The notes below the pieces were generated by a model. The model was not told the DNA's origin. It saw only the letters and a list, made by a program, of their open reading frames with translations, and did no database searches. A stretch of DNA of 64,000 bases from a virus: the IMG/VR virus record IMGVR_UViG_3300032117_000015, positions 18,149 to 82,148 of that record, one strand, 5' to 3'. Position numbers and translations under genes: made by a program. Shown piece by piece: positions 18,934 to 56,458 of this stretch. The first letter of the stretch is position 1; every line of letters begins with the position of its first letter.

Positions 18934-18959
18934 GGTGTCGCTTGTTCCTTATTTCAGTG

Positions 18960-18967
18960 TATTTATC
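18960..18967 (-). promoter_or_regulatory. T4-type late promoter (GATAAATA)
   Basis: Minus-strand GATAAATA followed by C, 26 bases before the ATG at 18933. The spacing to the start and the box are the same as before other virion genes. Confidence 0.75.
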
Positions 18968-18979
18968 ATAGTTTTGCTG

Positions 18980-23223: not shown

Positions 23224-26200
23224 TTAACTTTTAAATCCTGTGTACCATACACCCGGAGCGGCTTTAATGAAGTTAGCAACTGTGCTTGAATCGTAAATTA
23301 CACTAACATCTCCGGTATACTGCTTACCGTCCCATGGGATTCCAGTCTTTTTAACTACTGTTACTTCGGTTCCAAATAATGGAGCATTGGCTAAAGTAAT
23401 TGTACTTGTATTGTTTACAGTGAAATCTGCTGGGTAACTTACATCACCTGCTGGGCTGTATGGAGCTTTGTTAATATCAAATACGCTATAAGCTGATTTT
23501 TTCAAACGAACCATATCGTTTTGACCGCCAACAAACACTTCAACTTGGTCCGCAGAGCTAATTGTGTATCCGACATTTACAGAAGTTGTACCTAGTGAAG
23601 TAATTTTCTTAGTTAAGATTGTATCATTGTATGGAATAGTTTCACTTGGTCCAATTCCTTGTACAATCGTACCAGCTTTGTTTAAATTGTATACGCCGGT
23701 ACCTAGCGTTCCTCTACGTAATTGTCCAAGAATATTCCCTGAAATAGTAAAATATTCAATTCTTTCTCCGCGAATTTCAACAATACCCGGTTTATTTCCT
23801 GCAGGGTTTGGCGCATCTAACTGTGAAGCGTCGGTGACAACGATTGTAGTGTCATTCCAATTCAAATCTTGTGCAAGTTTTACTTGTTTATTAAGATTCA
23901 ATCGTTTGTAACTTACACGATTTAGCATATCTTTAAATTGCATATAAGATATACTAGATGTTGAAAGTAAATTACTTCCAAATGTGATTAATGTGATTGT
24001 ATCACCAGCCACTAACTTAATTCCTAATGTGATACTTTGTAAATCACTATTTAGAACATAATCGATGCTAGACGTTAATAATGTTGTATTTTTAATTACC
24101 CATACATAGTTGCTGTCAATAACTGCACGATCTAAATTAATAATACCACCAGCAATATTTTTATAAGTGTAGAACTGTGTTGTTCCTGGTGTAATTGAAT
24201 AATTAGAACTGTATTGAACTGTAGTACGTTGAATGTCTAATACATCTTGCACATATGAACTAATTACTTCAACTGTACCTGTTGGAACTGTTGTAAATGT
24301 AATTTGTCCAGAACTTGCATTGTATGAATATCCATTATTGGTAACAATACTTACAATTAATTGCTGTCCTGAATATTGTGAATAAATGTTTCTGTTAATT
24401 TTAACATTGATGCCGCTTGGATCAACAGTATAATCCGATGCTGGATTTAAAAGATTATTGCCAGCATAAACTACAACATTTCCAACAGGAACTGAATTAG
24501 GAGTAGCTTTAGACGGATCTATTGAATAATTTAATCTATTACCTTTAATAGTAAAATAACTATTATTAGGAGCTTGTAAAATACTTTGTCCAACACGTAC
24601 AATCATATTACTTTCATTTGGTAAATTATTTCCAATTGGATATGATAGTGTGTAAGTCGAAGTGTTTGCAATTGGTGCAATCGTTTGTGTCGTAGTAACT
24701 GCAAATGTTTGTTGCAATCCAGAAACAATAATATAATTAATCAATGCTCCAACTGCAGGTGCTGTTGCAAACTGAATACCAGTTTGACCTTCAATACTAT
24801 ATGTTGAGTCTGTTTTAAATAAAACTACTTGTGTTGCAACACCATTTACATAAACTAAACTTGTTGCGCTGTTTGTCCAACTTGCTCTTGTTACAAAATC
24901 AACAGTTGTACCGTCGCCTATAAAATAGTCAATGTCTAAAACATTAGATCCACTAAAACCAATACTATAGATGCTTAATAATTGGTTGGCAGTTGGCGCT
25001 GTTGCAACTAGCTGATTATTAACTGTTGATACTAATTCAATTGTTGCAGTTTGGTAATTAACAACATAATCTGAATTATATGTTAAAATGTTTGAACCAA
25101 GTTTGACTATTATTGCACGTGGATTATTTGGAGTTTGGCCAATTGCATAAGTGTAAGTAGTATCATCAGTTAGATAACTAATATCTTTAATATTTGCAGA
25201 TCCACTGTTAGTTTGGTCGTATACCTTAATAGCTAGTGTATCGACGACTTGTCCTGGTACTACTTCTTCAGGAGCAGGACTGTTTGTAGGAGTAATTAAT
25301 CCATCTCCATCTAATACAATATCATCAGCCGCAATACCTGTTGCAGTTGTATATGCTAGGTTACCACCATCGAGTTTAGTATCATAATTTGCATCCGGTG
25401 TTGGTACTGAACCATCACTTGTGCTTTCTCTTAAAATAAATTGATCGCCTGCACCAACTACAAAAGATGCTGGAATTTCAATAGTGTTGCTAACTAATTG
25501 GTCAATAATCATGCCATCTAAGGTACTTACTGGTGTACTAGAAGCCGATCCACCGTCATCAACTGCACCAAATGAAACTGTTATCAATGCTCCGCCGCCA
25601 CCTACTGATGTAGTAGTTAAGGTATTTCCAATTACAGGAGTTGGAATAATTGCGTTAGCATTAGTTTGACTCATTGTTCCAAAGTTAGGATCATCTAAAC
25701 GAATTGGATTATATGTTCCTGTAACATTAATTAATGATCCAGATGCATAAGGTGTGCTTAGAGAAATAGATCCTGGCACTATAACTACATCTTTCAATTC
25801 GGTTAGATTTTCTGTAAATGTAATTTGTGTTGAATTTACAATGTTTAATAGCAGTACTTGATCCAATGTAACTGTGTTATGTGTTGTATCGATTGCTGTA
25901 ATCTTAGTATCGTAACTAAAAGCCGATGCTGTCGCCGCAGTACCTGTACCTGTTCCTGGACCAGTAGCAATAAATGTTATCCCGGCTTCGTTTGATAATG
26001 CACCAATCAGCGTGAAATCAGTTGTGCCAATACTACTAATAGTATAAGTAACTCCTGTTGTAAATGCGCCAGCTGGTACTAAAGAATTAGAAACAACTGT
26101 TCCGACTTTTAAATTTGAAACACTATTCAATGTTAAAATATATCCGCCTGCAATATTTGAAAATGTAATTGTTTTGCCGTTTGCAGGTATTGAAGTGAAT

Positions 26201-29200
26201 GTAATTGTTTCGCCGTTTGCAGGAGTAGCATCGGGTATTGCACTAATAATTAAAGTAGTTTTGTCGACTACCTTAACAACGGTTTGCCCAGAAGTAAATC
26301 CTGTTCCGCTAATTAACATTCCAGGTATAATCTTAGCAGTACTAGAAATTACAAGTGTTGTTGTTGCACTACCTGAAGAATTATAAGAACGATAATACGA
26401 TAAATTATCTGGAATTGAATCAATAATTATCGATGTTGAATTAACGATTCGAACAACTTGCTGACGGTTTAAGAAGCCTTGTCCGTATAATTTCATTCCA
26501 GGAACAATACCTAATGTGCTACCTACATTAACTGTAAATCCGGAACTATTTAAAGATGTATATGTAGTTGTTACTCCTGCTGTAAGTGCAGTTGTTGTAA
26601 CTGTAACTGTTGGCGAAATTAAGTTTTGATCAAAACTGTATGTAACTGTTGAGCCGTCACTAGTGAAAGAGAACGTTTTTTGTTTTACATAATAAATGTT
26701 AATATTTGTACCGGCCGCAGGAGTATAAGGCAATGTAAACACATGGGTGTTTGCCGCAACTTGGACAGCATAATCGTTAAACGTTGGATCTCTACTATCC
26801 CAAGTATCTGTCATATATGGAGTTGATCCCCAGCCGCCAGCAATATTAAAATCTAGTCCGCTAACAATAGTTCCACCGTAGTCAACACCTGTCATTAACT
26901 GTGACAAATCCTTACCAAGTTGACCTGTTGTTGGATTATAATAATATTGAATACGATCTGTTGCACCCATAATCGATACATCTTTACTGTATGTAACAAC
27001 TATAGTAGAACCAGTTGATGGCGCATCTGTGAATGTTATTGTTCCAGAATACTGGGTGTATCCATTTGATGTTGATTTTACAATCGCCATCTTATATAAT
27101 TCTCGAAGTACTGGAATTCCGTCAATAGTAACCGTTGATTCACCTACTCTTACATCAGGCGCCCAAGTTAGGGCAAACTGCACTTTAGAAGAAGAACCAG
27201 TAAATGTATCTGTTTGTTTAATATTACTAATGTAGTATCCAGAATTAATACGGTCGAATTTTAATGCTGTTAAGTTTGAACGAATTATTCCGTCACCAAT
27301 AATCGCAACGGCTGTTGCCGGAACTCCGTTATCACCAAGCCCGCCATTAAATGCAATCGTCGGAGCACTTAAATATCCGCTTCCATTTTTATTTGTTAAA
27401 ATCACAACACGATTTACTTTTCCATTAGCAATATATGCCACAGCTTCGGCTGTAATTCCGTTAATACCGGTCGGAGTCGAAATAATAACTTCTGGAATAT
27501 TTGCATATCCGCTTCCGCCATTAGTGATAATAATATCTGTTACACTAAATCCTAGATTATCTGTCCAGAATTTCCATGGATAAGTTTGTAATAATCCGCT
27601 AGTCGATTCTAGTTGATTGTTAGCAACTATTACATCGATTGCAGTTGAGGTTCCATTAACAAACGTTGGTTGTAAATCAAAGTCGGTAACCGCACTTTCA
27701 TTAGTATCTAGTCCGGTATAGTTACTGATATATTCTCTAACTTTTGTTCTATAAGGTTTAACTTCTGCAACATAATCTTGGAAATTGTTTAAATTATCAA
27801 CTGGGTAATTAACTGGTTGATTTAAAGTTCCTACAGTATGAGTAGCTCTTACAAAACTTGTTTTGAATATCCAATCAATAAATGGTTGCTCGCTGTGTGC
27901 AAAACGTACACTAGTAAAGAACAAATCTAAATAATTTTGTTTTAAATCATCTATCAATAAATTATTTTTAATTGTATTAAGAATAATTCGTAATTCTGCA
28001 CTAGCTTGTACATCAAAGTCTCCGCCGTCAAATGTGTTAGAATCATACCCTACATTTGTTCCACTAAATTCATAAAGTGAAGAATTAAACTGTATTGTTC
28101 CGTTTTGAATTCCAATTACATTATAACTTTGTGTCCAATCGATACTTGTACTATTAGCATATTTTTCTAATAGTAACCAGCCTCCTGCATTAACTGTTGC
28201 AATCTTAACAACTTGTCCAATAGTAGGGTATATTGTATTCAAATCTGCAAAAGTCGATACTAGATAATCTGCGGCGGTATATTGATTATATCCTGTTGCA
28301 AACCAATCAGCATAACTCCAATAGTTATTAACATTATATGATTGAGTTAGTGTCTTAGACCATGTAGCAGTAGTATTATCGTAAGCATAGATACTCCAAG
28401 CACCAAGCGATGTGCTATCGGACTTAATCAATGCAGAGTAACCTCTCACAGTTGCAGTTGTACTGCTATTATATCCGACACCACTGTTAATAATATTTGC
28501 TCCAGTGATTTCTCCTAGAGCATTAATAGTTGCTCGAACTATGGCGGCTTCGCCCGAACCCGATATTTCAATATAAGGTGCAACAGCATACCCTCTTCCT
28601 GCGCTAATAACATTTATTCCAGTAATTCTACCGTTTGTTATAATCGGTGTTAATGAAGGTGTGCTGAAAGATCCTACGTTAGCAAATCTTAATTCAGTAT
28701 CTGTATCAAAAGATTTATCCCATAATCCAGAAATTTCTGTTGGAGCAGGATCAAATGTTTCTAATGGAGAAATGTCTCTCGAATTAGTAGTTTGATACGT
28801 ACTTAAAACAATGTTAACTCTTTCGATAAACTCTTTTAATGCTTCGATACGATTTACAAACATCGACTGGCGAGGACGATTTTCAATTCCATATCTTAAT
28901 TTTACAGGCAATGTTGGATCTGGTACTGGGCGACCTCCTGTATCAATTCCGCATAGACTATCGAACCATTTTTGTTCTATACCAGAAGGTAAATCAACTG
29001 CCGGATCATTACTAATTAGCTTCCACTGACTGTGAATATTTTGGTCGTTTTTATCTATTAACCAGTATTCAATTGCTAACACAATATCTGTTGCATTTAG
29101 ATATTGTGATGCATTTATTAAACTAAAACTGTTGGTGCCAGTTAATGCAAGGCAAGTATAATCTTGACCTCGAGGATTTGCAATTAAACTTGCAACATCA

Positions 29201-32200
29201 TTTGCGGCCATATTTCTTCCATCGACATTAGGAATAATTTTTTTATTCTTAACCCAGAAATAATATGTATTTTTAAATGTTTTACTTACGTTGTCATATA
29301 CTTGTGTTAAACTGTATGCAGAATTTCCGTATAAACTAGTTCCGCTAATACCCAATGCTAGTCCTGTTGATGTATCTGCAAGACTATCCCATACTGCTGG
29401 TAATTGGCTGTAAGATACCCATTCATACACATCGATACTTGCACCAGACGCTAACGTATTCCAAGTGTTTGTTCCGTAAAGAGGATCGTCAAAATAATTA
29501 TTAAGGAATTTAGCAGTTCTTAGATCCCACCACAATCTTCCTAAAGGTTGATCAGACCACCATCCTTCTATTCCATTTGACGGCGCAACGTTGACAGTTA
29601 CAGTTCCATCGCTATAAGAATAAGTTGCCGGATCGTAGAATGTTTGATACTTAATTTCTTCCTGAGCGGGTCCTGCTATTTTTCCTTGCAATGGATCGAT
29701 AACGTCTAGATAAGTTACCAATGTTCCTAAAGATTTATTATATAAAAATGCTTTACGAATCTTCGAAACATCAGGAATATCGACTTGCTGACGAGTAATA
29801 GTCCATGTAAGGTTATTGTTTAATTTAGTATAAGCATAAACTTGTCCAGATTGTGTTCCTTGATTAAATGCAGTTGGTGCTCCAACTACAACCTGATTAC
29901 TACCAACTGCAAAACCGATGCCATAACCGTCACCGACTGAATTTGAAGTTTTTAAACTTTCGCTAAAGACCCAATTAATATTGTATCTATCATAAACATC
30001 TACTCGTCCGCTACTGACTATTTTAGTAATAAAATCTGTAGATTTTTTATCAAATGTTGTTAAATTTTCATCAAATGTTGTAGTTACAGTTGTGTCTCCA
30101 TTAGGACTATAAACAACAATAGTTTGATAATCATTCATAAACTCTATCTTGTTTCCAAATAGAGCATCAACTTCTGGATTAGCATTAACTAAAGTCTGTG
30201 TCAATGTATAACCGTTAGAACTATAACCGTAAACATTAACAATTCCTTGTTTTGGTTTAGTTGGTGTTCCTTGTGTATCATCAGATATTGCAATATAATC
30301 ACCATATGAAGATACTGCAATACTATTGCCAAATCTTGAATCAGAACCTGTTAACACTTGAGAGGTTACAAATCCAGCTCCAGCATCTTTGTAGACATTA
30401 ACTTTTCCAGAAGATGAAATTAATAAAGTACTAGAATCTAAACTTAGTTTAGTATATTGACCAAAGTTTGTAGTGTTAGATGAATCAATTGTTGAATCAT
30501 ATGCCCAAGTGTTGATAATAAATTGTAATTGTCCGCTTGGTAAACTATTTTTATCAACGGGAGAATCTAACAAGATTGTATTTAATTTAATAACTGACGA
30601 TACACCAAAAGTTAAATTAACATTATTATCGATTACAACTTGCGTTATAGATGCATCAATGTCTTGCGGAGATCCGATAATAAAATAGCTCAATACTGTT
30701 TGCATTCCATTTACTAGAACAATTTCAGTTCCTTGACTTACTATTTTTGTATTTGGAAGAATATTTGTTCCAGTAACTGTCATACTATCTAACACATTAA
30801 CTGTGCTGAATACCACATTCACTAAACTATTTGCATTGACTAAAATTAATTTAGTTAGCACATAATCGACCGTTTGATTGCTAGTGTATCCGCTACCAGT
30901 TACAATCATTCCAGCACGTATTCCGCTAGTTGAATTTACTACTAGTGTGTTCAAAGAACTTCCAACAGGATTGTATTGAGTAGTAGCCATTACTATAGTT
31001 TTGTAACTTAGTTTATAAACACGGCCTGTACCGTTATTATAACCTGTTGCACCTACATATAATGTATTGTTACCAAAGGTAATACTTGATCCAAAATTTT
31101 CACCTGTAGTGGGATTTGGACTAATAATTGTATCTACAAGATTATAATTATTATCTAAATCTTTCTGATAGATACTAATTGCACCTTGCCCTACTATTGT
31201 TGAATTTATTCCAGAAATTTCGTTTGCTGGAATATAAGGAATTATTTGCCATGCTAGTGTAGTAGATGATGGTGTTGTTCCCGATGTAGTTTGCAATGCT
31301 TCGTAGTATACATTGTTGTATGAAACAATATTTCCAGAAACATAAGTATTTCCGCTGTTATAAGCACCTACATAATTTGTTGCTACTCTACTCACAGCTG
31401 GGTGCCCAGTAGCTAACCATTCTCCGTTTGTACTTATTCCAATTACAGTAGCAATTTGTGTAGGTTTTACATATAACGATGGTTGTCCTGGGATATGCTG
31501 TGTAATAAATGGTTGATCTAAGGTAGAACGTTGTACCCAAGGAACTAAAATTCCAGCCTTATCAAATGTAGTTACAACTCCTGTAGACCCGCTAGTAATT
31601 GCTAAGATAGATCCTTGGCTATTCATTCCAATAGTCGAACCAAATTGGAAAGATGTTGTTGGAGTTTGATTTGGTATACTTGATAAGTTGTATACAGGAG
31701 AATATTCCCATGTTGCCCAGTTACCAGTACCGTCATCATCTGTCCATACTAATTCTCCTGGAGCAATATGGCTAACCGGAATTTGATCTAAATTATCTAT
31801 AGAGCTTGTTCGACGTGTGACTAGCGCATATATCACTAGTTGGTTAGCTTCTGTAAAAGATACTGGGAAATTTTGAATACTTGCATTAACTGTAAAAGTA
31901 TTCAAAGAAACACTAGTAACTTCATAGAATCCTTGAAGCATAGCAACTTCAGCCAATCCAATGTATTGTCCTACAACAAGTGGGTCAATATTTTGTGTTG
32001 TGATTGTTAATACCCCGTTAGTGTACGTTACACTAGATGCACGTATTTGCAAATCAGAAAAACGATAGATATTCCAACTTGCTCCTTCAAACGCTGTCCA
32101 TACATATTGACCGTTATTTAAACTACCAATGTCTTGTGTAACAATATCAGAAAGTTGTCCAATACTAATTGCTACATCTGCAGAATTTACATATCCTGCA

Positions 32201-35200
32201 CTACGCAATAGTGGTTGATAATTGTCGATAGCAGGGAATGGATTTGAATTATATCCCAAAGGCTTAACGTAGATATCATTAGGTGTGTATTGATTGATAA
32301 ATGAATTTATATTGTTGTTAATATTATTTGTTAACAAGAATCCTTGAGGATTGTTTCTAAATTTACTTTGATCTAACACAACTTCAATATCTTCAAATGC
32401 GTTGCTCGCACCGTATCGACCAGTACGTAATGCCCACTCTTCATAGAATATTAAACTTTCAGCTTTGTCTTCGCTCAACACACCAAACAAATGATTCAAT
32501 ACATTTTGAGTTCCTTTTTCACGAATCATCCCTTGATAGAATTTAAATTCGCTTACTGGATCTTGAATAATATTATCTAAGTATTGACGTGTTTGATATC
32601 CAATTAAATGCTGTGCAAATTTTTGTTGTTGACTACTAAAATTATCAACATTTAAACTATAAAAATCTACAAACTGTGTTGCAAGGTTAGTCCAGTTTGG
32701 CAATAATTTTGCAGATGGCTGAGATGATAAACGTGCCCAACTAGATGGAACAAATGTCGATGTACCTGCGGTAAATGCGTTTGCGCTATAATAAGATCCT
32801 TGATAGGCAACAATATCTGCCATATTATAATCTTGCCAAGGTTGCCAGTTCTCAACAGTTGCTCCGTCAAAAACAAACCCTGGAATATCCAAGCCGCCGT
32901 ACCATCCAGTTGTAACATATCCAGACAATTTAATTCGATCTCTACGATATCCACTTGGAGGATTATAAATTACATCATTAAAGATATCAACATTGTCAAT
33001 AATAACTACATGTTCGTTTTGAATCAAGTAGAAACTTGCACAATAAATGCCGTCAGCAGTTCTTGGTGTATATGTAACAACATTGCCGTCTCTGTAGCTG
33101 TCTAGCTCTGTTGTTTTAAATGGTGTGCCGTCAACTTTAAAAATTTCGTAACTATTAAATGGGTTTGATATACTGTCGACAACAGTTAACTCTGTTGTAA
33201 ATGTAACCCCGCTAGCACCTGGACTTAGGCTTATCGCACTACTTCCAATGTTTGATAATCCTGGAAGTAATAACCATACATTAGTATCAAAAATAGGCGA
33301 TGCCGGAATATTGTATTGAGCACTATAATAATCGCCTTCGTACTTAACAACCGTGCCATAGCTATAAACTTGGTTTGGTAACCAATCTGCCCATTTTTCT
33401 TCTCCATTAGACCAATTTTGTGTGGTCCAAAACATAAATTCTTTAACACTAGTTGACCAATTTGTTACTGCATTTAAGTTATTATTAAAATTATTAAACT
33501 GGAATCCGTTGTCAATTAGATACTGTTCGTATCCTAACATAAAATCCACAACTTCTTGGATTGTAGATAACTGTGTGCCGTATGGTAATGTCAACAGAGC
33601 CGATTTGTCCCATGCTTCTCTGAAGGTTGCATTGACACCTCCAACTATCGGTAATGTATCTAAAGGAGAAAAATAGTCAGAATTAAAACTAATTCCAGCA
33701 GTTGAATTTACTTTGGCTCGATAATATGTTATTCCATATTTTACAATTTGCCCTGCCACATAAGACTGTCCTTGTGTCCATTGTGAAAAACTTTCTGAAA
33801 TTCCTCCAACATTTATACTAATACCAGATTGCAAATAATTATAATAATTAAAATATGGTTGAGTTTTACTATACCCTTTAATTTCATAACCTGTAGATAA
33901 TTTTGTAATAATTATTCCACTATAAGTTAATTTTTTAACAGGACTAGATGTGTTTAAAAATACTTTATAACTTTCATTTGGGATGAAAACACTACCTGTT
34001 GAAAGAGGTGTTTTGCTTTCAAGTAATAATTTAAATTGATCTTGATTAGTAAATGCACCAACTCTATAACTTAATTTAGGAACTAGATTAGACAAGTTAG
34101 ATTTATAAGAATTATAAGAATCTTGGTTATTACTAAAAATAATATTTAAAATTAAATCAACTACATAGTTAACAATACCTGCTGTTTGTGTTCTAGATGT
34201 ACTAGAATAGATACTAGGAATCTGTATATCAGCTGGTCTGATACGTAATCCGGTGTCTTTATAAACAAATTGGCCAGCAACGTTTCTTTCAACTCTCGAT
34301 CTGTCTAGTAATAATCCAAATGTTTTTGCAGGTGTTAATAACATCGATGTTACTATTACACTAAACGGATAATAACTGCTACGTCTCCAAGCAGATTCAA
34401 CTGGGCTAATATCGCCAAATACAAATGCATTATTCGTACTGTAATTAATTGGACCTGTTGCTAATCCAGAAACGATTGGGCTTACTAAATTACCAAATTC
34501 ATCTACTGGAATGTGCTGTGTTAAGAAAGGACGAACATAGTTAGACAATTTAACTGCGGGTAATCCTGGTTGTTTAACTAGTCCAGCGGCAAGGTCTTGC
34601 CACATAACTAAATTATTGCTTGTATAAGGTGCAGGTCCGTACACACTAGTCCACCAGCTCGGTTGTTGACTAAATCCTAACATTTCCCAAGGACAAAGGT
34701 GTGGTCTGTCTGTATCAAGCATCCAGCGATATATTCCTCTCCAGAATGCAGGAACTGAATTGTTGTCGGGCGAGACACTTTCTTTATAGTTAAAAGTAAA
34801 TGAATTACTCTTATCGTAACTTAACGGTTGAGTAAAGTCGATACCAACTAAACCACTCCATTGGTAAAATGACGGTGCAAGTACTTCATTAAATTCTGAT
34901 AAACTGTAGTCATTGGTTCGATTGTAACCAGGAATAATGTCTGCTATATCAAAAATTGTAGTATCATATTTTACTTTAATATTATTAAAAATTCTTGTTT
35001 CTAATTCTAATATTAACGCATCTCTGTAATCGCCGTATGCTAACAAAATACTTCCGTCGTGTCCTTGAATCACATTCTGTGGTGTGATTAAAGTTGTATC
35101 TAGATACAGTTGTGGAATAAATGCTGGCCACATACCTAATTTAGAAGGTGTTGCTGGAATAAAGCACCCGTCTGTTGAATCATATTCAACAGTTGTAATT

Positions 35201-38061
35201 GTATCACCGTTAATTAATGTTACATTATTAGCGATAACAATAAAACTTTGACTGTTAAATGTATAATCTCTTCCGTAAACTAATTGAGTTTTAATATTAT
35301 TAGAAGTACGATAAACTCCTACCGCTTTATTAGATAATGTATCTAATGTAAACACATTTGATAGAGGATATGTTTTTACTCTATAATCGACTACAGTAAG
35401 ATTAGTAATTGTAGATGCACCATACGGAACCATATCACTAAAATAATATGGTGCGGTATTAGGTTTATTTGCATTAAGTTTTTGTAAGATTAAATCAACT
35501 ATAGTGACTGGGTCTCCATCGATTCCTAATGTTTCAGCTGTTTTTATAAAATTTCTTTTGAAACTATTATAGTCATCTTTTGCAGTTTCAATAGCATTAA
35601 TAATATTATTCGATTGATTTGTAATATGATATAAACTTAAACTTATTGGACCACTGTGTTGTACAAATTTTGTGCCGTATTGAGTTATATTTCCAAGATC
35701 TCGTAAATTGCTATCTCCTGGAAAAATTCCAACAAATCCTGATGGCAAATTATCAATAATACTATTAACGTGATCTGCTACTTCGCCTAACGTAAATGTT
35801 CCAATGACATCATTCATTGGATTGTTTTGAAGATTCAATGGAATTTCATAATAACCGTTACTATTAATAGCCTGTGAAGCAAAAGCACGAATAGTTAATA
35901 CATCGCCAGTGCCTATGCTAGTATTCAATACTATTTGTTTGTATTGCGGTGTTGATATGATAGTCCACAAAGTTGAATCTAATCTAGAACTATTAACATA
36001 AACTTTTACAACTAAATCTGCTAAATTATTAATGTCATCAAAAATATCAATATTAAAATTATTTGTTTGTGTTGATCCATCATAGATTCTAATAGCGGCT
36101 TGTACTATTGATGTATTACAAATTTGCCATCCATTTACATAACTAGACACTCCAACAAAATTATTTTTTAACAAATAACCGGTGTTAATACCTTGATTAA
36201 TAACCGCCGTTGTTTCTTTATAATTAAAAGTGTCCGATGCTAAATCAAAACTAAACACAATGTCGCCAATATTTGCAACATTTAGATAACTTAGAGGAAA
36301 TCCTAAACTGGAGTCATCGTTACCTGTGCCAACTTTATAGGAAAATATTTTTGTTCCTATAAAACTTGAACCGTTATACTTACTTGTATCTCCAAAGCTG
36401 ATTCCTTCACTATCAAATATATCAAATAAAGGAGGCTGGTTTGTAGCTGTTTTTTGTTGCCCGGCAATCCAAGTTGTACCGTCATACCAGTATAACTGAC
36501 TTTGATTTTTTATACCTTGAAGAACTAACACTATCTGATTTTCAATCGGTGTATGTACTTGGGTCAAGTGTATTTGATTGCGTCCTTGAATGTTTATAAA
36601 ACTGACTTCGTAGATATTGTTTTTAACTAAAGGATCATAGTCATTAGTGAAAAGAATACGCTGTCCTGCTGATACAGGAATTCCATCGATATTATACCCA
36701 AGCGTTCCTTCAATTGAAGAAAATACATCAGTAGTAAATGTATCTACCAAATCAATGTCTTGTATTGCAGTTGTACCTAAATTAAATAATTTAAGTCCTG
36801 CTTCAAATTCAATAATAGGTCTTATAGCTCTTGTTGTTTGATCCAAACTTGGAGTGTCACCATTATATGTTATACTAGTTTCGATAACATCCTTATGGAA
36901 CCAACGATTATAACGACTCCAAGGGTTATGGTCAGTGCTTGCTCTATTAATTACAATATAATCTTTATTACTTGCAAATCCAGTTGAGTCGTCGAATGGT
37001 GTGGAATCGAATGGATCAGCTCCAAATTCGACTGCCTCGTTAGAAGAATAAGGGCTTACGATTTCTAAAATAGATTCTGAAATTAATTTAATTGCTGTGC
37101 CGACACCTTCAACATAATAGTGTCCTGTAGCATAACTAGAAGGTATTACATTACCTCCAAAATTAATTTTCATGCCGTTGCTTAGTGCTGTACCGTCGGG
37201 CAAAATATAAACTTGTTTTCCAATAATATCATTTTCGACATCAAGTGTTGTTTCGTCTACAATGTCATAAATTTCAATTGCGCCGCCTACATTAATATCT
37301 GTTTCGCTTTGGTAAAATAATAAACTAGGTGCATCGATTGGAACTTCAAATGTTATTGTCCCGCTTTCTACACTATGAGCACTTACATTTTTTGTATATA
37401 GATACGCAGTTCCTAAACTACGTTCAGTCATAAAGCTGAACGGATTTCCTAAACTAGTAATATTAAAATTATAAGTTTGTCCTCTATATAATTTTAAGGT
37501 AGGATTCAAAGTTAATCCGTCTGGGGTAAACAAATATTCATTAGTGTCCCCTTCTGACTGTAGCTGAACATTATATGTACTATTTGCACCTGTAGGTTGT
37601 CCGTAGATTGTAATAACTGTTGGACCGTTTGGTAACCAATAGTAATCTTGGAAATTAATAAACTTATCCCAGTCAATATGTGGATCCCAACTATAAAATT
37701 CTTGTTTGTTTAGTCTTGCATGATTACTTGTATTTGCACCGAATACATTTAATTGATTAATATAATCTTGATAGTCTTTAAAAAATGTTGTGTTTCCTAA
37801 AGTATCTGTAACTGTCAACCCCGGCTCTAACTGATAATTTTGGCGAATATTATTAGCGGCTTGAACATATACATCTGTTCCGGTAGCGGCTTTTGCATTT
37901 TTACGACCAATAAATCCACTAGTTTTAGTAATTGTTCCTGGCTGATATAATTGATCAATTGTTGCTTGCAAAAACTTTTTGTTTGCACTTGACTGATAAA
38001 AATCAGGAAGAAAATTAACACCTAATCCAGTGTTGCCGGTTGGAATGTTGTCATTAGTCAT
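23224..38061 (-). CDS. Giant virion protein (4,945 residues), baseplate/tail-fibre type
   Basis: A single uninterrupted frame of nearly 15 kb. It starts in the stop codon of gp6, the place of the large wedge proteins in T4-like baseplates, so a baseplate-periphery or fibre-root role is likely. Visible parts: an N-terminal anchoring region (about 1-300, LPDFYQSSANKKFLQATIDQ); three carbohydrate-binding-like W...Y..G..V.Y...YY.A motifs near residues 1424, 1555 and 1737, and a fourth near 2227; a repeat region about 2150-2750 with FG-GAP-like blades (FGSSITFGNNTLYVGATGY, FGNSIAVSSYGDYIAISDD, GFAVGSNQVVVGAPTAF); GxGY repeats at about 3150-3570; several GM-x-x-x-G-x-G-F modules; and a C-terminal RGTLGTG region. 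No protease or lysozyme motif seen. Confidence 0.75.
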   Translation of the reverse strand: MTNDNIPTGNTGLGVNFLPDFYQSSANKKFLQATIDQLYQPGTITKTSGFIGRKNAKAATGTDVYVQAANNIRQNYQLEPGLTVTDTLGNTTFFKDYQDYINQLNVFGANTSNHARLNKQEFYSWDPHIDWDKFINFQDYYWLPNGPTVITIYGQPTGANSTYNVQLQSEGDTNEYLFTPDGLTLNPTLKLYRGQTYNFNITSLGNPFSFMTERSLGTAYLYTKNVSAHSVESGTITFEVPIDAPSLLFYQSETDINVGGAIEIYDIVDETTLDVENDIIGKQVYILPDGTALSNGMKINFGGNVIPSSYATGHYYVEGVGTAIKLISESILEIVSPYSSNEAVEFGADPFDSTPFDDSTGFASNKDYIVINRASTDHNPWSRYNRWFHKDVIETSITYNGDTPSLDQTTRAIRPIIEFEAGLKLFNLGTTAIQDIDLVDTFTTDVFSSIEGTLGYNIDGIPVSAGQRILFTNDYDPLVKNNIYEVSFINIQGRNQIHLTQVHTPIENQIVLVLQGIKNQSQLYWYDGTTWIAGQQKTATNQPPLFDIFDSEGISFGDTSKYNGSSFIGTKIFSYKVGTGNDDSSLGFPLSYLNVANIGDIVFSFDLASDTFNYKETTAVINQGINTGYLLKNNFVGVSSYVNGWQICNTSIVQAAIRIYDGSTQTNNFNIDIFDDINNLADLVVKVYVNSSRLDSTLWTIISTPQYKQIVLNTSIGTGDVLTIRAFASQAINSNGYYEIPLNLQNNPMNDVIGTFTLGEVADHVNSIIDNLPSGFVGIFPGDSNLRDLGNITQYGTKFVQHSGPISLSLYHITNQSNNIINAIETAKDDYNSFKRNFIKTAETLGIDGDPVTIVDLILQKLNANKPNTAPYYFSDMVPYGASTITNLTVVDYRVKTYPLSNVFTLDTLSNKAVGVYRTSNNIKTQLVYGRDYTFNSQSFIVIANNVTLINGDTITTVEYDSTDGCFIPATPSKLGMWPAFIPQLYLDTTLITPQNVIQGHDGSILLAYGDYRDALILELETRIFNNIKVKYDTTIFDIADIIPGYNRTNDYSLSEFNEVLAPSFYQWSGLVGIDFTQPLSYDKSNSFTFNYKESVSPDNNSVPAFWRGIYRWMLDTDRPHLCPWEMLGFSQQPSWWTSVYGPAPYTSNNLVMWQDLAAGLVKQPGLPAVKLSNYVRPFLTQHIPVDEFGNLVSPIVSGLATGPINYSTNNAFVFGDISPVESAWRRSSYYPFSVIVTSMLLTPAKTFGLLLDRSRVERNVAGQFVYKDTGLRIRPADIQIPSIYSSTSRTQTAGIVNYVVDLILNIIFSNNQDSYNSYKSNLSNLVPKLSYRVGAFTNQDQFKLLLESKTPLSTGSVFIPNESYKVFLNTSSPVKKLTYSGIIITKLSTGYEIKGYSKTQPYFNYYNYLQSGISINVGGISESFSQWTQGQSYVAGQIVKYGITYYRAKVNSTAGISFNSDYFSPLDTLPIVGGVNATFREAWDKSALLTLPYGTQLSTIQEVVDFMLGYEQYLIDNGFQFNNFNNNLNAVTNWSTSVKEFMFWTTQNWSNGEEKWADWLPNQVYSYGTVVKYEGDYYSAQYNIPASPIFDTNVWLLLPGLSNIGSSAISLSPGASGVTFTTELTVVDSISNPFNSYEIFKVDGTPFKTTELDSYRDGNVVTYTPRTADGIYCASFYLIQNEHVVIIDNVDIFNDVIYNPPSGYRRDRIKLSGYVTTGWYGGLDIPGFVFDGATVENWQPWQDYNMADIVAYQGSYYSANAFTAGTSTFVPSSWARLSSQPSAKLLPNWTNLATQFVDFYSLNVDNFSSQQQKFAQHLIGYQTRQYLDNIIQDPVSEFKFYQGMIREKGTQNVLNHLFGVLSEDKAESLIFYEEWALRTGRYGASNAFEDIEVVLDQSKFRNNPQGFLLTNNINNNINSFINQYTPNDIYVKPLGYNSNPFPAIDNYQPLLRSAGYVNSADVAISIGQLSDIVTQDIGSLNNGQYVWTAFEGASWNIYRFSDLQIRASSVTYTNGVLTITTQNIDPLVVGQYIGLAEVAMLQGFYEVTSVSLNTFTVNASIQNFPVSFTEANQLVIYALVTRRTSSIDNLDQIPVSHIAPGELVWTDDDGTGNWATWEYSPVYNLSSIPNQTPTTSFQFGSTIGMNSQGSILAITSGSTGVVTTFDKAGILVPWVQRSTLDQPFITQHIPGQPSLYVKPTQIATVIGISTNGEWLATGHPAVSRVATNYVGAYNSGNTYVSGNIVSYNNVYYEALQTTSGTTPSSTTLAWQIIPYIPANEISGINSTIVGQGAISIYQKDLDNNYNLVDTIISPNPTTGENFGSSITFGNNTLYVGATGYNNGTGRVYKLSYKTIVMATTQYNPVGSSLNTLVVNSTSGIRAGMIVTGSGYTSNQTVDYVLTKLILVNANSLVNVVFSTVNVLDSMTVTGTNILPNTKIVSQGTEIVLVNGMQTVLSYFIIGSPQDIDASITQVVIDNNVNLTFGVSSVIKLNTILLDSPVDKNSLPSGQLQFIINTWAYDSTIDSSNTTNFGQYTKLSLDSSTLLISSSGKVNVYKDAGAGFVTSQVLTGSDSRFGNSIAVSSYGDYIAISDDTQGTPTKPKQGIVNVYGYSSNGYTLTQTLVNANPEVDALFGNKIEFMNDYQTIVVYSPNGDTTVTTTFDENLTTFDKKSTDFITKIVSSGRVDVYDRYNINWVFSESLKTSNSVGDGYGIGFAVGSNQVVVGAPTAFNQGTQSGQVYAYTKLNNNLTWTITRQQVDIPDVSKIRKAFLYNKSLGTLVTYLDVIDPLQGKIAGPAQEEIKYQTFYDPATYSYSDGTVTVNVAPSNGIEGWWSDQPLGRLWWDLRTAKFLNNYFDDPLYGTNTWNTLASGASIDVYEWVSYSQLPAVWDSLADTSTGLALGISGTSLYGNSAYSLTQVYDNVSKTFKNTYYFWVKNKKIIPNVDGRNMAANDVASLIANPRGQDYTCLALTGTNSFSLINASQYLNATDIVLAIEYWLIDKNDQNIHSQWKLISNDPAVDLPSGIEQKWFDSLCGIDTGGRPVPDPTLPVKLRYGIENRPRQSMFVNRIEALKEFIERVNIVLSTYQTTNSRDISPLETFDPAPTEISGLWDKSFDTDTELRFANVGSFSTPSLTPIITNGRITGINVISAGRGYAVAPYIEISGSGEAAIVRATINALGEITGANIINSGVGYNSSTTATVRGYSALIKSDSTSLGAWSIYAYDNTTATWSKTLTQSYNVNNYWSYADWFATGYNQYTAADYLVSTFADLNTIYPTIGQVVKIATVNAGGWLLLEKYANSTSIDWTQSYNVIGIQNGTIQFNSSLYEFSGTNVGYDSNTFDGGDFDVQASAELRIILNTIKNNLLIDDLKQNYLDLFFTSVRFAHSEQPFIDWIFKTSFVRATHTVGTLNQPVNYPVDNLNNFQDYVAEVKPYRTKVREYISNYTGLDTNESAVTDFDLQPTFVNGTSTAIDVIVANNQLESTSGLLQTYPWKFWTDNLGFSVTDIIITNGGSGYANIPEVIISTPTGINGITAEAVAYIANGKVNRVVILTNKNGSGYLSAPTIAFNGGLGDNGVPATAVAIIGDGIIRSNLTALKFDRINSGYYISNIKQTDTFTGSSSKVQFALTWAPDVRVGESTVTIDGIPVLRELYKMAIVKSTSNGYTQYSGTITFTDAPSTGSTIVVTYSKDVSIMGATDRIQYYYNPTTGQLGKDLSQLMTGVDYGGTIVSGLDFNIAGGWGSTPYMTDTWDSRDPTFNDYAVQVAANTHVFTLPYTPAAGTNINIYYVKQKTFSFTSDGSTVTYSFDQNLISPTVTVTTTALTAGVTTTYTSLNSSGFTVNVGSTLGIVPGMKLYGQGFLNRQQVVRIVNSTSIIIDSIPDNLSYYRSYNSSGSATTTLVISSTAKIIPGMLISGTGFTSGQTVVKVVDKTTLIISAIPDATPANGETITFTSIPANGKTITFSNIAGGYILTLNSVSNLKVGTVVSNSLVPAGAFTTGVTYTISSIGTTDFTLIGALSNEAGITFIATGPGTGTGTAATASAFSYDTKITAIDTTHNTVTLDQVLLLNIVNSTQITFTENLTELKDVVIVPGSISLSTPYASGSLINVTGTYNPIRLDDPNFGTMSQTNANAIIPTPVIGNTLTTTSVGGGGALITVSFGAVDDGGSASSTPVSTLDGMIIDQLVSNTIEIPASFVVGAGDQFILRESTSDGSVPTPDANYDTKLDGGNLAYTTATGIAADDIVLDGDGLITPTNSPAPEEVVPGQVVDTLAIKVYDQTNSGSANIKDISYLTDDTTYTYAIGQTPNNPRAIIVKLGSNILTYNSDYVVNYQTATIELVSTVNNQLVATAPTANQLLSIYSIGFSGSNVLDIDYFIGDGTTVDFVTRASWTNSATSLVYVNGVATQVVLFKTDSTYSIEGQTGIQFATAPAVGALINYIIVSGLQQTFAVTTTQTIAPIANTSTYTLSYPIGNNLPNESNMIVRVGQSILQAPNNSYFTIKGNRLNYSIDPSKATPNSVPVGNVVVYAGNNLLNPASDYTVDPSGINVKINRNIYSQYSGQQLIVSIVTNNGYSYNASSGQITFTTVPTGTVEVISSYVQDVLDIQRTTVQYSSNYSITPGTTQFYTYKNIAGGIINLDRAVIDSNYVWVIKNTTLLTSSIDYVLNSDLQSITLGIKLVAGDTITLITFGSNLLSTSSISYMQFKDMLNRVSYKRLNLNKQVKLAQDLNWNDTTIVVTDASQLDAPNPAGNKPGIVEIRGERIEYFTISGNILGQLRRGTLGTGVYNLNKAGTIVQGIGPSETIPYNDTILTKKITSLGTTSVNVGYTISSADQVEVFVGGQNDMVRLKKSAYSVFDINKAPYSPAGDVSYPADFTVNNTSTITLANAPLFGTEVTVVKKTGIPWDGKQYTGDVSVIYDSSTVANFIKAAPGVWYTGFKS

Positions 38062-51347: not shown

Positions 51348-51782
51348 ATGTCTTGGACTTATCAAAATCAAATTATAGAAACCCTCCCTGAAGAATGCAT
51401 AGGATTCGTATATCTTATTACAAACACTACTAACGGGCGCATGTACATAGGCAAAAAATTAGCAAAATTTAGCAAAACTACCTACAAGACAGTAAAACTT
51501 AAAAACGGCAAGAAGAAAAAACAAAAAATCCGCAGTAAAATTGACAGCGATTGGCGTGAATATTATGGTTCATCGCCCGAGTTGACTAAAGATATTGCGC
51601 TGTTAGGCAAAGAAAATTTCACTAGAGAAATACTTTATTACTGCGAATCTAAAGCGATGTGCAGTTATATTGAAGCTAGAGAACAGTTTTCACGCAGAGT
51701 TTTAGAATCAAAAGACTACTATAATGGTCATATTCAAGTGCGTGTACATGGATCACATATACTCAAGGCTCAACAAAAGTAG
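51348..51782 (+). CDS. GIY-YIG nuclease-like protein
   Basis: A 144-residue protein with the N-terminal GIY-YIG pattern in variant form: GFVYLITNTTNGRMYIGKK (about 19-37), then a Lys-rich segment (LKNGKKKKQKIR), DWREYYGSS, FTREILYYC and YIEAREQF with the Glu expected in the active site. Such proteins are phage homing-type or repair nucleases. It stands alone, without a split host gene, and is followed by the long structured non-coding region. No good ribosome site is seen. Confidence 0.75.
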   Translation: MSWTYQNQIIETLPEECIGFVYLITNTTNGRMYIGKKLAKFSKTTYKTVKLKNGKKKKQKIRSKIDSDWREYYGSSPELTKDIALLGKENFTREILYYCESKAMCSYIEAREQFSRRVLESKDYYNGHIQVRVHGSHILKAQQK

Positions 51783-52286: not shown

Positions 52287-53426
52287 ATGAAAGTTACTGA
52301 AATCATAGAGAATCCGCTTCAAGAATGGCTAACATTCGAAGCTACTGTCGGTGCTAATGCCGGAACAATAAGTCCTGGTGGAATTGCTATTCCTACTGGT
52401 TCTACTACACATTTACCTCCATCATCAACTCCTAAAGCAAGTGGTACAGGTAATTGGAAAAGTCCTCTTGGACCAATGCCTAAAACTAACATTGGTAAAA
52501 TGCTTTCTAAAGATCAAATTTGGTCTAAAGTAAAAACTACACTAGCATCAAGTCCTATTAATAAAGCACCTTTATCTAGCAAAGGTTTAAAAGTAGTTGG
52601 TAACTATATTCGTGTTGCACAATGGTTTAACTATTATGACTTCTTAGTTGAATACTGGAAAACTAAAGAAGTTATCGAACAAATGGTCAAGGATGGTCCA
52701 GATAAAGGTGGACTTTCAGAAGACGACGGTGAAGTAGCTATTAGATTACAACGTGAAAAACTATATGTTGACTTAATCAGTGGCGGCATTATTAATAGCA
52801 TCGTTATTAAAATGATCAAAGTCATTCCTCTTGCACGTTGGTTCAGCAGAGGAGCAGGCGCTTTACTTGAAATCTTCACAGGTGGGTTAGCTACTGCTGG
52901 TGTTGTTGGTGAAATATTGTTAGTTGAAGCAGTAACAGTATTATTACAAAAATGGTTAAACTCAGAAGATGGTAAACGTGTAATCACATGGTGTGTTTGC
53001 TATCTTATCGATCCAGGTGTTGAGTTGTTTTGGCAAATGGGATGTGAACGTTTCTTTGGAGAGTTAAAACACATGTCGACACAAGGTGATGAGAATCTTG
53101 AAAAAGGCAATAAAGTAAATGGAACTCCTGCATCGGATTTAATTACTAAGGCAGGTAACGCTGTTTCTGGCGCACTCGGCGGAGTGGCGGCTGGTGCAGG
53201 TGATTGGGTTTCAAAGAATGTTAGTAAAGATGCTGGAAAAGCTATTACGGATCTAGGAAAAGATAGTTCAAGTAGTAGTTCGTCTTCTAGTCCATCAACT
53301 CCGTCAGGATCTAAATCAAAAATAAATCAAACATCTGATGATGACAATGACGGACTTGATAAAACTAATATAAGAGTGAGAAGACCAGGCGACATTGATC
53401 AGAGTTTAATAAAACCTGGTAATTAA
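52287..53426 (+). CDS. Late hypothetical protein with hydrophobic central region
   Basis: A 379-residue protein of unknown function, expressed from a late promoter, so probably a virion or morphogenesis protein. The N-terminal 85 residues are Gly/Pro/Thr-rich. Residues about 165-255 hold several hydrophobic segments (SGGIINSIVIKMIKVIPLA, LLEIFTGGLATAGVVGEILL, VITWCVCYLI) that could cross or insert in a membrane. The tail has a run of nine Ser (about 329-337) and a charged end. An ejected or membrane-acting virion protein is one possibility. Its stop overlaps the convergent frameshift ORF by 4 bases. Confidence 0.65.
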   Translation: MKVTEIIENPLQEWLTFEATVGANAGTISPGGIAIPTGSTTHLPPSSTPKASGTGNWKSPLGPMPKTNIGKMLSKDQIWSKVKTTLASSPINKAPLSSKGLKVVGNYIRVAQWFNYYDFLVEYWKTKEVIEQMVKDGPDKGGLSEDDGEVAIRLQREKLYVDLISGGIINSIVIKMIKVIPLARWFSRGAGALLEIFTGGLATAGVVGEILLVEAVTVLLQKWLNSEDGKRVITWCVCYLIDPGVELFWQMGCERFFGELKHMSTQGDENLEKGNKVNGTPASDLITKAGNAVSGALGGVAAGAGDWVSKNVSKDAGKAITDLGKDSSSSSSSSSPSTPSGSKSKINQTSDDDNDGLDKTNIRVRRPGDIDQSLIKPGN

Positions 53427-53655
53427 ATTAATGGCATTCCGGAAGATTTAGTAGCTTCCATATTTTCTTTAATAATTTCATTTATTAAATTAATATCTTC
53501 AAGTGAGTACGTGTGGAATAAGTCGTTAATATTAACTCCACCACGCATATACCAACTTAATCTAAATAAATTTTCTTTAAATAAGACGATTTCTTTTTCT
53601 AGCCTAACAAGATACTCTTCAATTTCTCTGTCAGTTAGTCTTGTTAGGCGCCAAC
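53423..53655 (-). CDS. -1 frame extension of the gp26-like gene (77 codons, no start codon)
   Basis: An open frame of 77 codons directly following the slippery site, reading RWRLTRLTDREIEEYL... to ...ATKSSGMPLI. It has no ATG, GTG or TTG until a Met 37 codons in, in the middle of the conserved-looking core FKENLFRLSWYMRGG, so it cannot be started normally. It is entered by a -1 shift from codon 272 of the upstream gene, giving a 349-residue fusion. I recall similar small proteins after the gp26-like gene in aquatic T4-like phages. It parallels the gpG-gpGT tail-chaperone pair of other phages. Confidence 0.75.
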
Positions 53656-53662
53656 GAAAAAA
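53602..53662 (-). promoter_or_regulatory. Programmed -1 frameshift signal: slippery heptamer plus stem-loop
   Basis: On the minus strand, T TTT TTC (53662-53656) is in the correct phase (codons TTT 271, TTC 272). A 6-base spacer (53655-53650) leads into a perfect 11-bp stem: minus-strand GCCTAACAAGA (53649-53639) pairs with TCTTGTTAGGC (53612-53602), with a 26-base loop. The stop of the zero frame is only 3 codons beyond the slip. Confidence 0.8.
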
Positions 53663-54471
53663 GTTGTTTGATTAATCTCAATAGATATGTCGTCATCATG
53701 CTCACATGTAGAACACTTGACCTTAACTTTAGGCGTTTGCCATGCATTGTTATTAGCATCAAACTGTTTCTTGATTGAATCATACACATCTATGTCACAG
53801 TTATCTAAATATTCGTTAATAAAACTTTTTTCTGTTACTACTACATTCGGTAACTCTATTTGATCAATAGACTCTAACATGATTTTTCTTTGCAACTGTT
53901 TCATTTCTTCAAATAATGATTGGAATAATGCAATACGTTCTTCGTCTGATTCGACTCTATCAATCTGTGCAGATTTCTTTTGAATAGCAAAATTTTCTAA
54001 ACTAAATTTGTTAGATTCTTTAAATGTCAATGGTCTAATTTTAATAACTAGATCTCGTAATACGATTTTAGGATCAAATTGACATTTTTGAAAATGCTCT
54101 ATAAATGTTGATAAATCTAGATCGTATTGATTTTCTGCACCGCAATTTTCGCAAACATGTGGAACTTCGATTAAGTTATTATATGTGGCAATTCTTATTG
54201 CAGTTAACACATAGTCTATATCGTTGTTACATAGTTCCCAAGGATTAGAAACATCGGGACAGCAACTACCGATGACCTTTGCAACACTTTCTCCTGAAAG
54301 TAATGCATCTGGAGTTTTAAGTATAATTTCATCCATGCCTGTTAAACCAAATACAGCCATTTTTTCACTTGACTGAATTGTTCCTGGTTTACTATACAAT
54401 TTACTGATAGGTAAATCGATATAAATCTTAGGTTGTCTGAAATACTGCTGTAAAGGGTTGGATTTCGCCAT
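53644..54471 (-). CDS. 26: gp26-like baseplate hub / tail assembly protein (T4_baseplate family)
   Basis: A 275-residue protein from the ATG at 54471, chosen because AGGAG lies just upstream; the longer frame to 54543 runs through the promoter. The pattern NPLQQYFRQPKIYIDLP, LTGMDEIILKTPDALLSGESV, and YVLTAIRIATYNN is that of gp26-type proteins of T4-like phages, needed to assemble the baseplate hub. Two CxxC pairs (107/110 and 253/256) may form a zinc ribbon. Its last codons contain the slippery site leading to a 77-residue extension. It is divergent from the tape-measure gene, consistent with a tail-assembly-chaperone role. Confidence 0.8.
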   Translation of the reverse strand: MAKSNPLQQYFRQPKIYIDLPISKLYSKPGTIQSSEKMAVFGLTGMDEIILKTPDALLSGESVAKVIGSCCPDVSNPWELCNNDIDYVLTAIRIATYNNLIEVPHVCENCGAENQYDLDLSTFIEHFQKCQFDPKIVLRDLVIKIRPLTFKESNKFSLENFAIQKKSAQIDRVESDEERIALFQSLFEEMKQLQRKIMLESIDQIELPNVVVTEKSFINEYLDNCDIDVYDSIKKQFDANNNAWQTPKVKVKCSTCEHDDDISIEINQTTFFVGA

Positions 54472-54535: not shown

Positions 54536-56458
54536 ATGAACACTTCTGATCCAGATTACAGACGTTGGGCCGACGCACAAGAAGAAACAAATAAACTACT
54601 TAGAAGACGAGCAGACAAGGGAGACGATGCTCCTTTAAGGTCATTCTTTGGCGGTATAATTAAAGGCGAAGGTACTATGGATGAGTTTTTTCGCAAATTT
54701 AGAGAATACAAAGCTGATTTAGAAGATTTAAACGATCAATATCGTGTCGCAACTTCGGTTGGTTTACTTAGCAACCGAAGTATGTATCAATTAGATGCCG
54801 ACTTAAAATCCGCTCATCTTAGTGTTAGTGAATTTAAACATGTTTTAGATTTTGCAGGAACTGTTAACTTTAGTAAATTTGGCGGAGGAATGAATCAGGC
54901 TACTGATAATTTCTTACAAATTTCCAGAGTTATGCAATCTTCTGGACTAACAACTTCCCTTCAACAGTTAGGTTTAAACTATCAAGAGCAAAACGAACTA
55001 TTAGCAATATCATTTGATAGACAAAAAGATAAGTTTGCTATAGAAAGAGGACCAGACGGCTTACCAAGAATTACTCAATCGTTAACCGACAGAATGGTTG
55101 AGCTAGGAAAAAACATTGCCCTTAACACGGATATTTTAGGAATATCAAGAGAAGATCAATTAAGAGCAATAGCACAACGTAACAGAGACGCAGAAACACA
55201 GTATGCTTATGAACATGCTAGCTCAGATGGATTGAAAAAATTTATATCTAGCCAGGGTCCTTTAATGGATGCGTTAAACAGTAACGAATTCAAGCGCCTT
55301 TCATTAGGGTACACTTTAAATTCTGAAGAGATGGCAAAATTAAGAGTACAATTTAAAGAAAATACTCCTGAAATGATGAGAGTTGCTAGTGAGATTGCTA
55401 GAGTTTCGCCTGATAAACAAGCACAAGAAACAACGGCTGTTAAATTACAAACAGCAATTGGTCATTTGCAAGATTCTATCAATAATCCAAGATCTGCAAA
55501 TGAAATGAAAAATATTTCCAGAATTCAGGAAAGTAGTCCAGAATACGGAGCAGGATTAGTAGCTGGAAGACAAATGGCTATGAATCTTCAAATACTAAAC
55601 GATCTACGTAAAAATGACAAAGGCGAAATAGTTAAAAGTCTCCAAGAAGTTATAAAAGAACAAGCAGACAAAGGTAAAAATGGACTAGTTGCTCCTGGAT
55701 CGGAAACACCTACTGCTGGACTAACTCCAGGGCAAAGAGCTACAGTACTAACCCAGGAGGCATTAAGTAGAGCGGCAGATGCACATGCATTAATGTCAAG
55801 AGGAATTGAAATGCTAGCAAATGATGTGTTAGGATCTGCAAAGTTAGGAGACAAACTTGTATTAGGGTTACGTCCTGAAGGTGCATTTGGACAGCAAGTT
55901 CAACTTAGAGCGGCACAAGATGTAGAAGCATCTATTTCTACATTTTTCCAGTGGATACTCGGCGAAAAAACTGCTGGGCAGATGGCAGATTCTCTTAAAA
56001 AATTATGGAACGATACTATAGGAACAGCTTTTGAAGAAGCTAAAAAAGTTTGGAACTCTGGAAATCAAAGAACTGATTCTAGATCGATTCCAAACACAGA
56101 ACCACCGAGAGCACATGCAAGCGGAACCATGGGTGTGTGGGGCGAATTATTTCACGATTTTAACCCTGCAGGCGAGTTACACTTTTTAGATGGAAAAGAA
56201 GCAGTATTAACTCCTCCTCAATTATCAGGCTTGATGAACAAAGTTACAAGCGATGCAATCGGCACACTACAACAATCTTTAGCAACACCAATACAAAATA
56301 CACCTACTGCTCAAATTGATGAACAGCATTTTGTAGACATAAAACAACTGCTAGGACAGTTAAATACACTAATGTCACATTTGCCAGGCATCGCTGACAC
56401 TATGGATAAACAATATAGTGCTCTGAAGAGCCTAAATAACGATGCACTTCAATCTTAA
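54536..56458 (+). CDS. Tail tape-measure protein (gp29-like role)
   Basis: A 640-residue, largely helical protein. The C-terminal part RAHASGTMGVWGELFHDFNPAGELHFLDGKEAVLTPPQ (about 523-560) has the layout found at the end of many phage tape-measure proteins (A-x-GT-G..., H-G/D-x-EAV). The rest is long helices without a membrane segment. T4's tail-length protein gp29 has 590 residues; the size fits. Its neighbour on the other strand is the gp26-like gene with frameshift, as expected for a tail-chaperone/tape-measure pair. Expressed late. Confidence 0.72.
   Translation: MNTSDPDYRRWADAQEETNKLLRRRADKGDDAPLRSFFGGIIKGEGTMDEFFRKFREYKADLEDLNDQYRVATSVGLLSNRSMYQLDADLKSAHLSVSEFKHVLDFAGTVNFSKFGGGMNQATDNFLQISRVMQSSGLTTSLQQLGLNYQEQNELLAISFDRQKDKFAIERGPDGLPRITQSLTDRMVELGKNIALNTDILGISREDQLRAIAQRNRDAETQYAYEHASSDGLKKFISSQGPLMDALNSNEFKRLSLGYTLNSEEMAKLRVQFKENTPEMMRVASEIARVSPDKQAQETTAVKLQTAIGHLQDSINNPRSANEMKNISRIQESSPEYGAGLVAGRQMAMNLQILNDLRKNDKGEIVKSLQEVIKEQADKGKNGLVAPGSETPTAGLTPGQRATVLTQEALSRAADAHALMSRGIEMLANDVLGSAKLGDKLVLGLRPEGAFGQQVQLRAAQDVEASISTFFQWILGEKTAGQMADSLKKLWNDTIGTAFEEAKKVWNSGNQRTDSRSIPNTEPPRAHASGTMGVWGELFHDFNPAGELHFLDGKEAVLTPPQLSGLMNKVTSDAIGTLQQSLATPIQNTPTAQIDEQHFVDIKQLLGQLNTLMSHLPGIADTMDKQYSALKSLNNDALQS

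Follow-up and report, generated by a model that had tools for sequence, protein, structure and literature searches.

A gp26-like phage gene with a predicted −1 ribosomal frameshift site, and its relation to T4 gp26 and gp51

In the viral DNA analysed here (the window, a stretch of 64 000 nucleotides), a gene resembling T4 gp26 ends at a stop codon, and a second open reading frame (ORF2) continues past that stop in the −1 frame with no start codon ahead of its conserved core. How is ORF2 translated, and what would the two reading frames make together? The preliminary description of the window had proposed a programmed −1 frameshift and a tail-chaperone role. Our sequence comparisons make it very probable that the locus encodes a tail assembly chaperone and is decoded by −1 programmed ribosomal frameshifting, with a short form (TAC-N) and a long form (TAC-NC) as its products. 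The features of the locus are:

53644 to 54471, minus strand: gp26-like gene, the predicted short form (TAC-N), 275 aa (PF12322, phrog_150)
53656 to 53662, minus strand: slippery heptamer T_TTT_TTC, read from the sequence and invariant in 58 of 58 contexts
53644 to 53646, minus strand: 0-frame stop codon TAA, read from the sequence, inside the 5' arm of the stem
53639 to 53649, minus strand: 5' arm of the candidate stimulatory stem, GCCTAACAAGA, from folding and covariation
53602 to 53612, minus strand: 3' arm of the same stem, TCTTGTTAGGC, from folding and covariation
53423 to 53656, minus strand: −1 ORF (ORF2), predicted to extend the C-terminus in the long form (TAC-NC), 77 codons and a stop
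54536 to 56458, plus strand: divergent neighbour, 640 aa, a putative tape measure with weak similarity to a RaK2 profile

The gp26-like gene, its heptamer and the RNA stem

The gp26-like ORF runs from an ATG at 54471 to the TAA at 53646-53644 and is the one PF12322 gene found in the 82-kb source record. The match to this Pfam family (T4_baseplate, the gp26/gp51 family) scores 51.1 bits against a curated cut-off of 24.5 (E 1.9e-13), and the PHROG match is phrog_150 (E 7e-17). Fold matches of the AF2 model (pLDDT 87) were confined to predicted T4-like proteins of the gp26 type (baseplate hub assembly). Neither a sequence hit nor a fold match was obtained for the protein in the PDB, and the Pfam scan gave no sequence relation to the lambda-type chaperone families; chaperones of this kind are very diverse. 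An IMG/VR scan with the protein as query retrieved 80 loci at 43-67% identity, and the window family comprises 58 distinct contexts, namely 57 of the IMG/VR loci and the window itself. Mean column identity of the protein is 62% in a 50-sequence alignment.

The 3' end of the gene reads ACT TTT TTC GTT GGC GCC TAA, with T_TTT_TTC (53662-53656) in phase and three codons (GTT GGC GCC) between it and the stop, exactly as the preliminary description had it. Sites of −1 frameshifting are identified by a conserved 0-frame heptamer of the form X_XXY_YYZ a short way ahead of a stop. TTTTTTC in phase, together with an open −1 frame, is found in all 80 IMG/VR loci of the family, and the heptamer is in phase in each of the 58 distinct contexts. 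The third positions of its codons have zero entropy across the window family; those of the upstream codons vary. Of the 59 FF dipeptides at other places in these loci, only 2 use T_TTT_TTC, so the conservation is above chance. Cyanophage-type loci give a similar result, with the heptamer in phase in 64 of 64 distinct contexts, against 7 of 175 for their other FF dipeptides.

Downstream, the perfect 11-bp stem with its 26-nt loop was recovered as earlier described. It begins 6 nt past the heptamer, within the 5-9 nt expected of a stimulatory RNA structure. Its folding energy (MFE −20.1 kcal/mol, z −3.4) was equalled by none of 200 shuffles. Among 57 aligned sequences (53 distinct), pairing is kept in 94.7% of cells; both partners have changed in 35 cells, and 18 additional pair types occur. 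The observed covariation score was reached by 0 of 500 shuffles, a count that is not a probability because the sequences are related; sliding the pairing partner, a control that retains this relatedness, lowers pairing to 15-56%. Spacing of the stem is fixed in nearly all sequences of the family, and one locus (L046) has no stem. An SD-like stimulator was also looked for in the window lineage and is absent.

The −1 frame and how it may be read

Past the heptamer the −1 frame is open for 77 codons (53656-53426) up to a stop at 53425-53423; with the 272 residues before the shift this yields a fusion of 349 residues, the length first claimed. The claim that the frame is coding-like also holds, variation being concentrated at the third positions of the −1 frame (entropies 0.85/0.49/1.32). 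Its length is constant in all complete sequences compared; the contig of one locus (L031) ends within it, and in another (L059) its end departs from the family. The core W.MRGG is invariant in a 52-sequence alignment, and mean column identity is 69%, compared with 62% for the gp26-like protein. The AF2 model of ORF2 is all-helical (pLDDT 83.6). Comparison by sequence with the PDB matched no solved structure, and the search against viral predicted structures gave no match below E 0.3.

ORF2 might instead be a separate gene for a stand-alone small protein, made by reinitiation after termination or from a start codon of its own, and it is indeed annotated separately ('gp51, baseplate hub assembly catalyst') in P-SSM2, S-PM2, KVP40, HTVC008M and RHph_I1_9. 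An ATG lies at the stop or within a few nucleotides of it in cyanophages (5 nt past the first base of the stop codon in cyanophage-type loci), KVP40, 121Q and pEa_SNUABM_19, and separate translation of ORF2 is therefore possible in these phages. Ackermannviridae-type phages (L210 and L215; phiA8-29, classed in Ackermannviridae, and Vibrio K476, grouped with it by sequence only) keep the −1 ORF but have no heptamer. In Vibrio K476 the gp26 stop reads TAATG, and a switch from frameshifting to coupled translation is possible in this group. The window, however, has no ATG, GTG or TTG ahead of the conserved core, as previously noted, and the same absence was found in 34 other contexts (35 of 58 in all); in Desulfovibrio phage 7757 there is no start codon anywhere in the −1 ORF. 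A separate gene would also leave the conservation of the heptamer third positions and of the stem without a reason, and T4 gp51, considered below, is a fused protein. As the preliminary description expected, homologues retain the slippery site, a stem in which compensatory changes occur, and the −1 ORF; an own start with no slippery site, which it had named as counter-evidence, was seen only in two distant Ackermannviridae-type phages. We consider a separate ORF2 highly improbable.

The fusion could also arise from mixed mRNAs, through slippage of the RNA polymerase on the T6 run in the gene. Slippage on homopolymer runs is known in other bacterial genes, but the runs needed are usually longer than T6. 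This mechanism fits poorly with the conserved codon phase of T_TTT_TTC, with a covarying RNA stem whose distance is the one common in −1 ribosomal frameshifting, and with the SD-like GAGG upstream of the site in cyanophages, as in some ribosomal frameshift signals; we regard it as very improbable. That the −1 ORF is a relic or a sequencing artefact with no product has a negligible chance, its length, coding signature and core residues being conserved over many independent contigs and isolates.

Related loci, and T4 gp26 and gp51

The arrangement read here as a frameshift locus recurs in phage isolates. In P-SSM2, S-PM2, HTVC008M and KVP40 a phrog_634 gene ('baseplate hub assembly catalyst') follows gp26 directly in the −1 frame, and the heptamer before the gp26 stop is TTTTTTC in P-SSM2, S-PM2 and KVP40 and TTTTTTT in HTVC008M. 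The 64 distinct cyanophage-type loci, taken from IMG/VR, all show this arrangement as well. A −1 ORF with TTTTTTC, TTTTTTT or TTTTTTG is present in Aeromonas 65, ACP17, Desulfovibrio 7757, pf16, VmeM-32, OC and RHph_I1_9, and the jumbo phages XaC1, RaK2, 121Q, pEa_SNUABM_19 and Atu_ph07 have both heptamer and −1 ORF too. Stimulators are lineage-specific. The window lineage has the hairpin and no SD-like element; in cyanophage-type loci (L112-L191) the slippery site is preceded by an SD-like GAGG in 58 of 61 cases, and a hairpin also lies downstream of the heptamer. This hairpin provides no evidence from covariation because it is nearly invariant.

T4 itself has two PF12322 proteins, gp26 and gp51, both in the same family as the window gene and both listed as hub assembly chaperones, with genetic evidence for gp26 inside the hub (PMC3004832). 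The C-terminal end of T4 gp26 is ...RGLKEFFELL, where FF is encoded by TTC TTT and there is no slippery site. T4 gp51 is a separate, divergent gene. End to end, it aligns with the KVP40/cyanophage-type fusion (hhalign probability 99.5, E 7e-23). When the −1 ORF of that type is taken alone, the match covers residues 205-249, the last 45 of gp51 (E 5e-9). Since the homology of gp51 with the fusion extends over its whole length, T4 appears to encode the two forms in separate genes, gp26 being the short one and gp51 the long one. The window fusion in turn matches the KVP40/cyanophage-type fusion family (hhalign E 8e-16). Window ORF2 alone gave no significant profile match to the cyanophage/KVP40 ORF2 or to gp51; its connection to them goes by way of RaK2-type ORF2 and the fusions.

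From the distribution among phages, duplication may have replaced frameshifting in T4. A broader scenario seems to us tentative and rather doubtful as a whole: that T_TTT_TTC-type frameshifting is ancestral across the T4 superfamily (cyanophages, pelagiphages, the KVP40/Aeromonas 65 groups, Rhizobium phages, RaK2-like and Atu_ph07 jumbo phages, and the window lineage) with lineage-specific stimulators, that T4 gp26 and gp51 came from duplication and in-frame fusion, and that the breadth or the stimulator difference is unreported.

Tail-chaperone role and comparison with known systems

The gene order tail tube, gp26, ORF2, large ORF is found in several isolates. A tail tube gene upstream of gp26 is annotated in KVP40, HTVC008M, Aeromonas 65, pf16 and RHph_I1_9; among the isolates examined, a downstream tape measure is annotated only in HTVC008M. 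This gene order, and the homology of gp51 to the fusion, argue for the proposed tail-chaperone reading of the gp26-like protein. At the level of arrangement, the window has the layout of two overlapping ORFs for the short and long chaperone forms. The preliminary description also placed the tape measure gene directly beside the locus. The 640-aa neighbour is adjacent and divergent, and its identity as a tape measure is putative, suggested by a weak match between its profile and that of a RaK2 neighbour called tape-measure-like; it had no significant family hit in Pfam or PHROG. It was also compared with T4 gp29 and with the downstream genes of KVP40-type phages, and no homology was found.

Several other genes of the window deserve mention in their own right. 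On the minus strand, one ORF of 4945 aa (23224-38061) is very large for a phage structural protein, and three long neighbouring ORFs (17425-22560; 502, 444 and 749 aa), with N-terminal stretches alike by eye, look like duplicated fibre-type proteins. The plus strand carries adjacent genes for a MoxR/AAA-type ATPase and a VWA-metallopeptidase (DUF2201) at 6591-7679 and 7754-8938, a ThyX thymidylate synthase (10484-11167), a SegE-type GIY-YIG endonuclease gene (51348-51782) and a QueE-like radical SAM protein (839-1687; match under Pfam's own cut-off).

From the signal, the covarying stem, the conserved −1 coding, the missing start and the homology of the fusion family to gp51, we infer that frameshifting takes place, presumably at a low rate, and that its products are chaperones. 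Most ribosomes would stop at the TAA at 53646 and release the 275-aa TAC-N. A minority, stalled by the 11-bp hairpin that begins 6 nt further on, would slip one base back on T_TTT_TTC, read CGT as the next codon and add 77 residues, giving the 349-aa TAC-NC. If the lambda gpG/gpGT pair is a guide, the tape measure protein would be coated by many copies of the short form and few of the long, and tail tube subunits would be recruited by the helical C-terminal region of the latter.

T4-like tail assembly chaperones were identified by Vladimirov, Gautam and Davidson (2022, Virology 566:9-15), a study represented here by the papers that cite it. In its citing passage, the PRFect paper (PMC10885494) describes T4-like phages that do without frameshifting and have two genes, a short one and a longer, fused one. 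The phage Adele paper (PMC12846349) cites the study for −1 signals of the poly-T type in the TAC-N genes of T4-like phages. From the description of a short gene plus a fused gene, gp26 and gp51 are probably the genes meant. Judged by these citations, the chaperone reading, which the preliminary description did not know to be established, is not new: the genes were identified in 2022 and poly-T signals are cited as known. A literature search on gp26/gp51 and frameshifting gave no match besides this study, as it appears in the papers citing it. Within that same compass, the covarying stem and the extension to the window lineage and to jumbo phages may be the new parts. The comparison ties gp51 to a predicted trans-frame product and lists T4-superfamily phages that appear to keep the frameshift. 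Genes annotated 'gp26' and 'gp51' (the latter sometimes unannotated) could be re-annotated as one decoded locus.

Signals of the E. coli dnaX type combine an SD-like element upstream with a hairpin downstream; cyanophages are alike in having the SD-like GAGG and a hairpin, whereas the window lineage has its hairpin without an SD-like element. The lambda gpG/gpGT frameshift was reportedly described by Xu et al. in 2004. Like that pair, the window locus has a short ORF, an in-phase slippery heptamer near its end and a start-less −1 extension, in a tail-gene neighbourhood and with a predicted tail chaperone as product; unlike it, the window locus has the heptamer T_TTT_TTC, a strong covarying stem and a putative tape measure gene that is divergent. 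The lambda proteins form a TAC-N/TAC-NC pair (PMC5009743). The TAC frameshift of Vandenendeviridae and Andersonviridae, as given in the phage Adele paper (PMC12846349), uses a GTTTTT motif in a phage group different from that of the window. The T4-like chaperones of Vladimirov et al. (2022), as cited, have short and long forms, as would the window lineage; T4 has two genes for them, whereas in the window lineage a single gene carries the slippery site and a hairpin that covaries.
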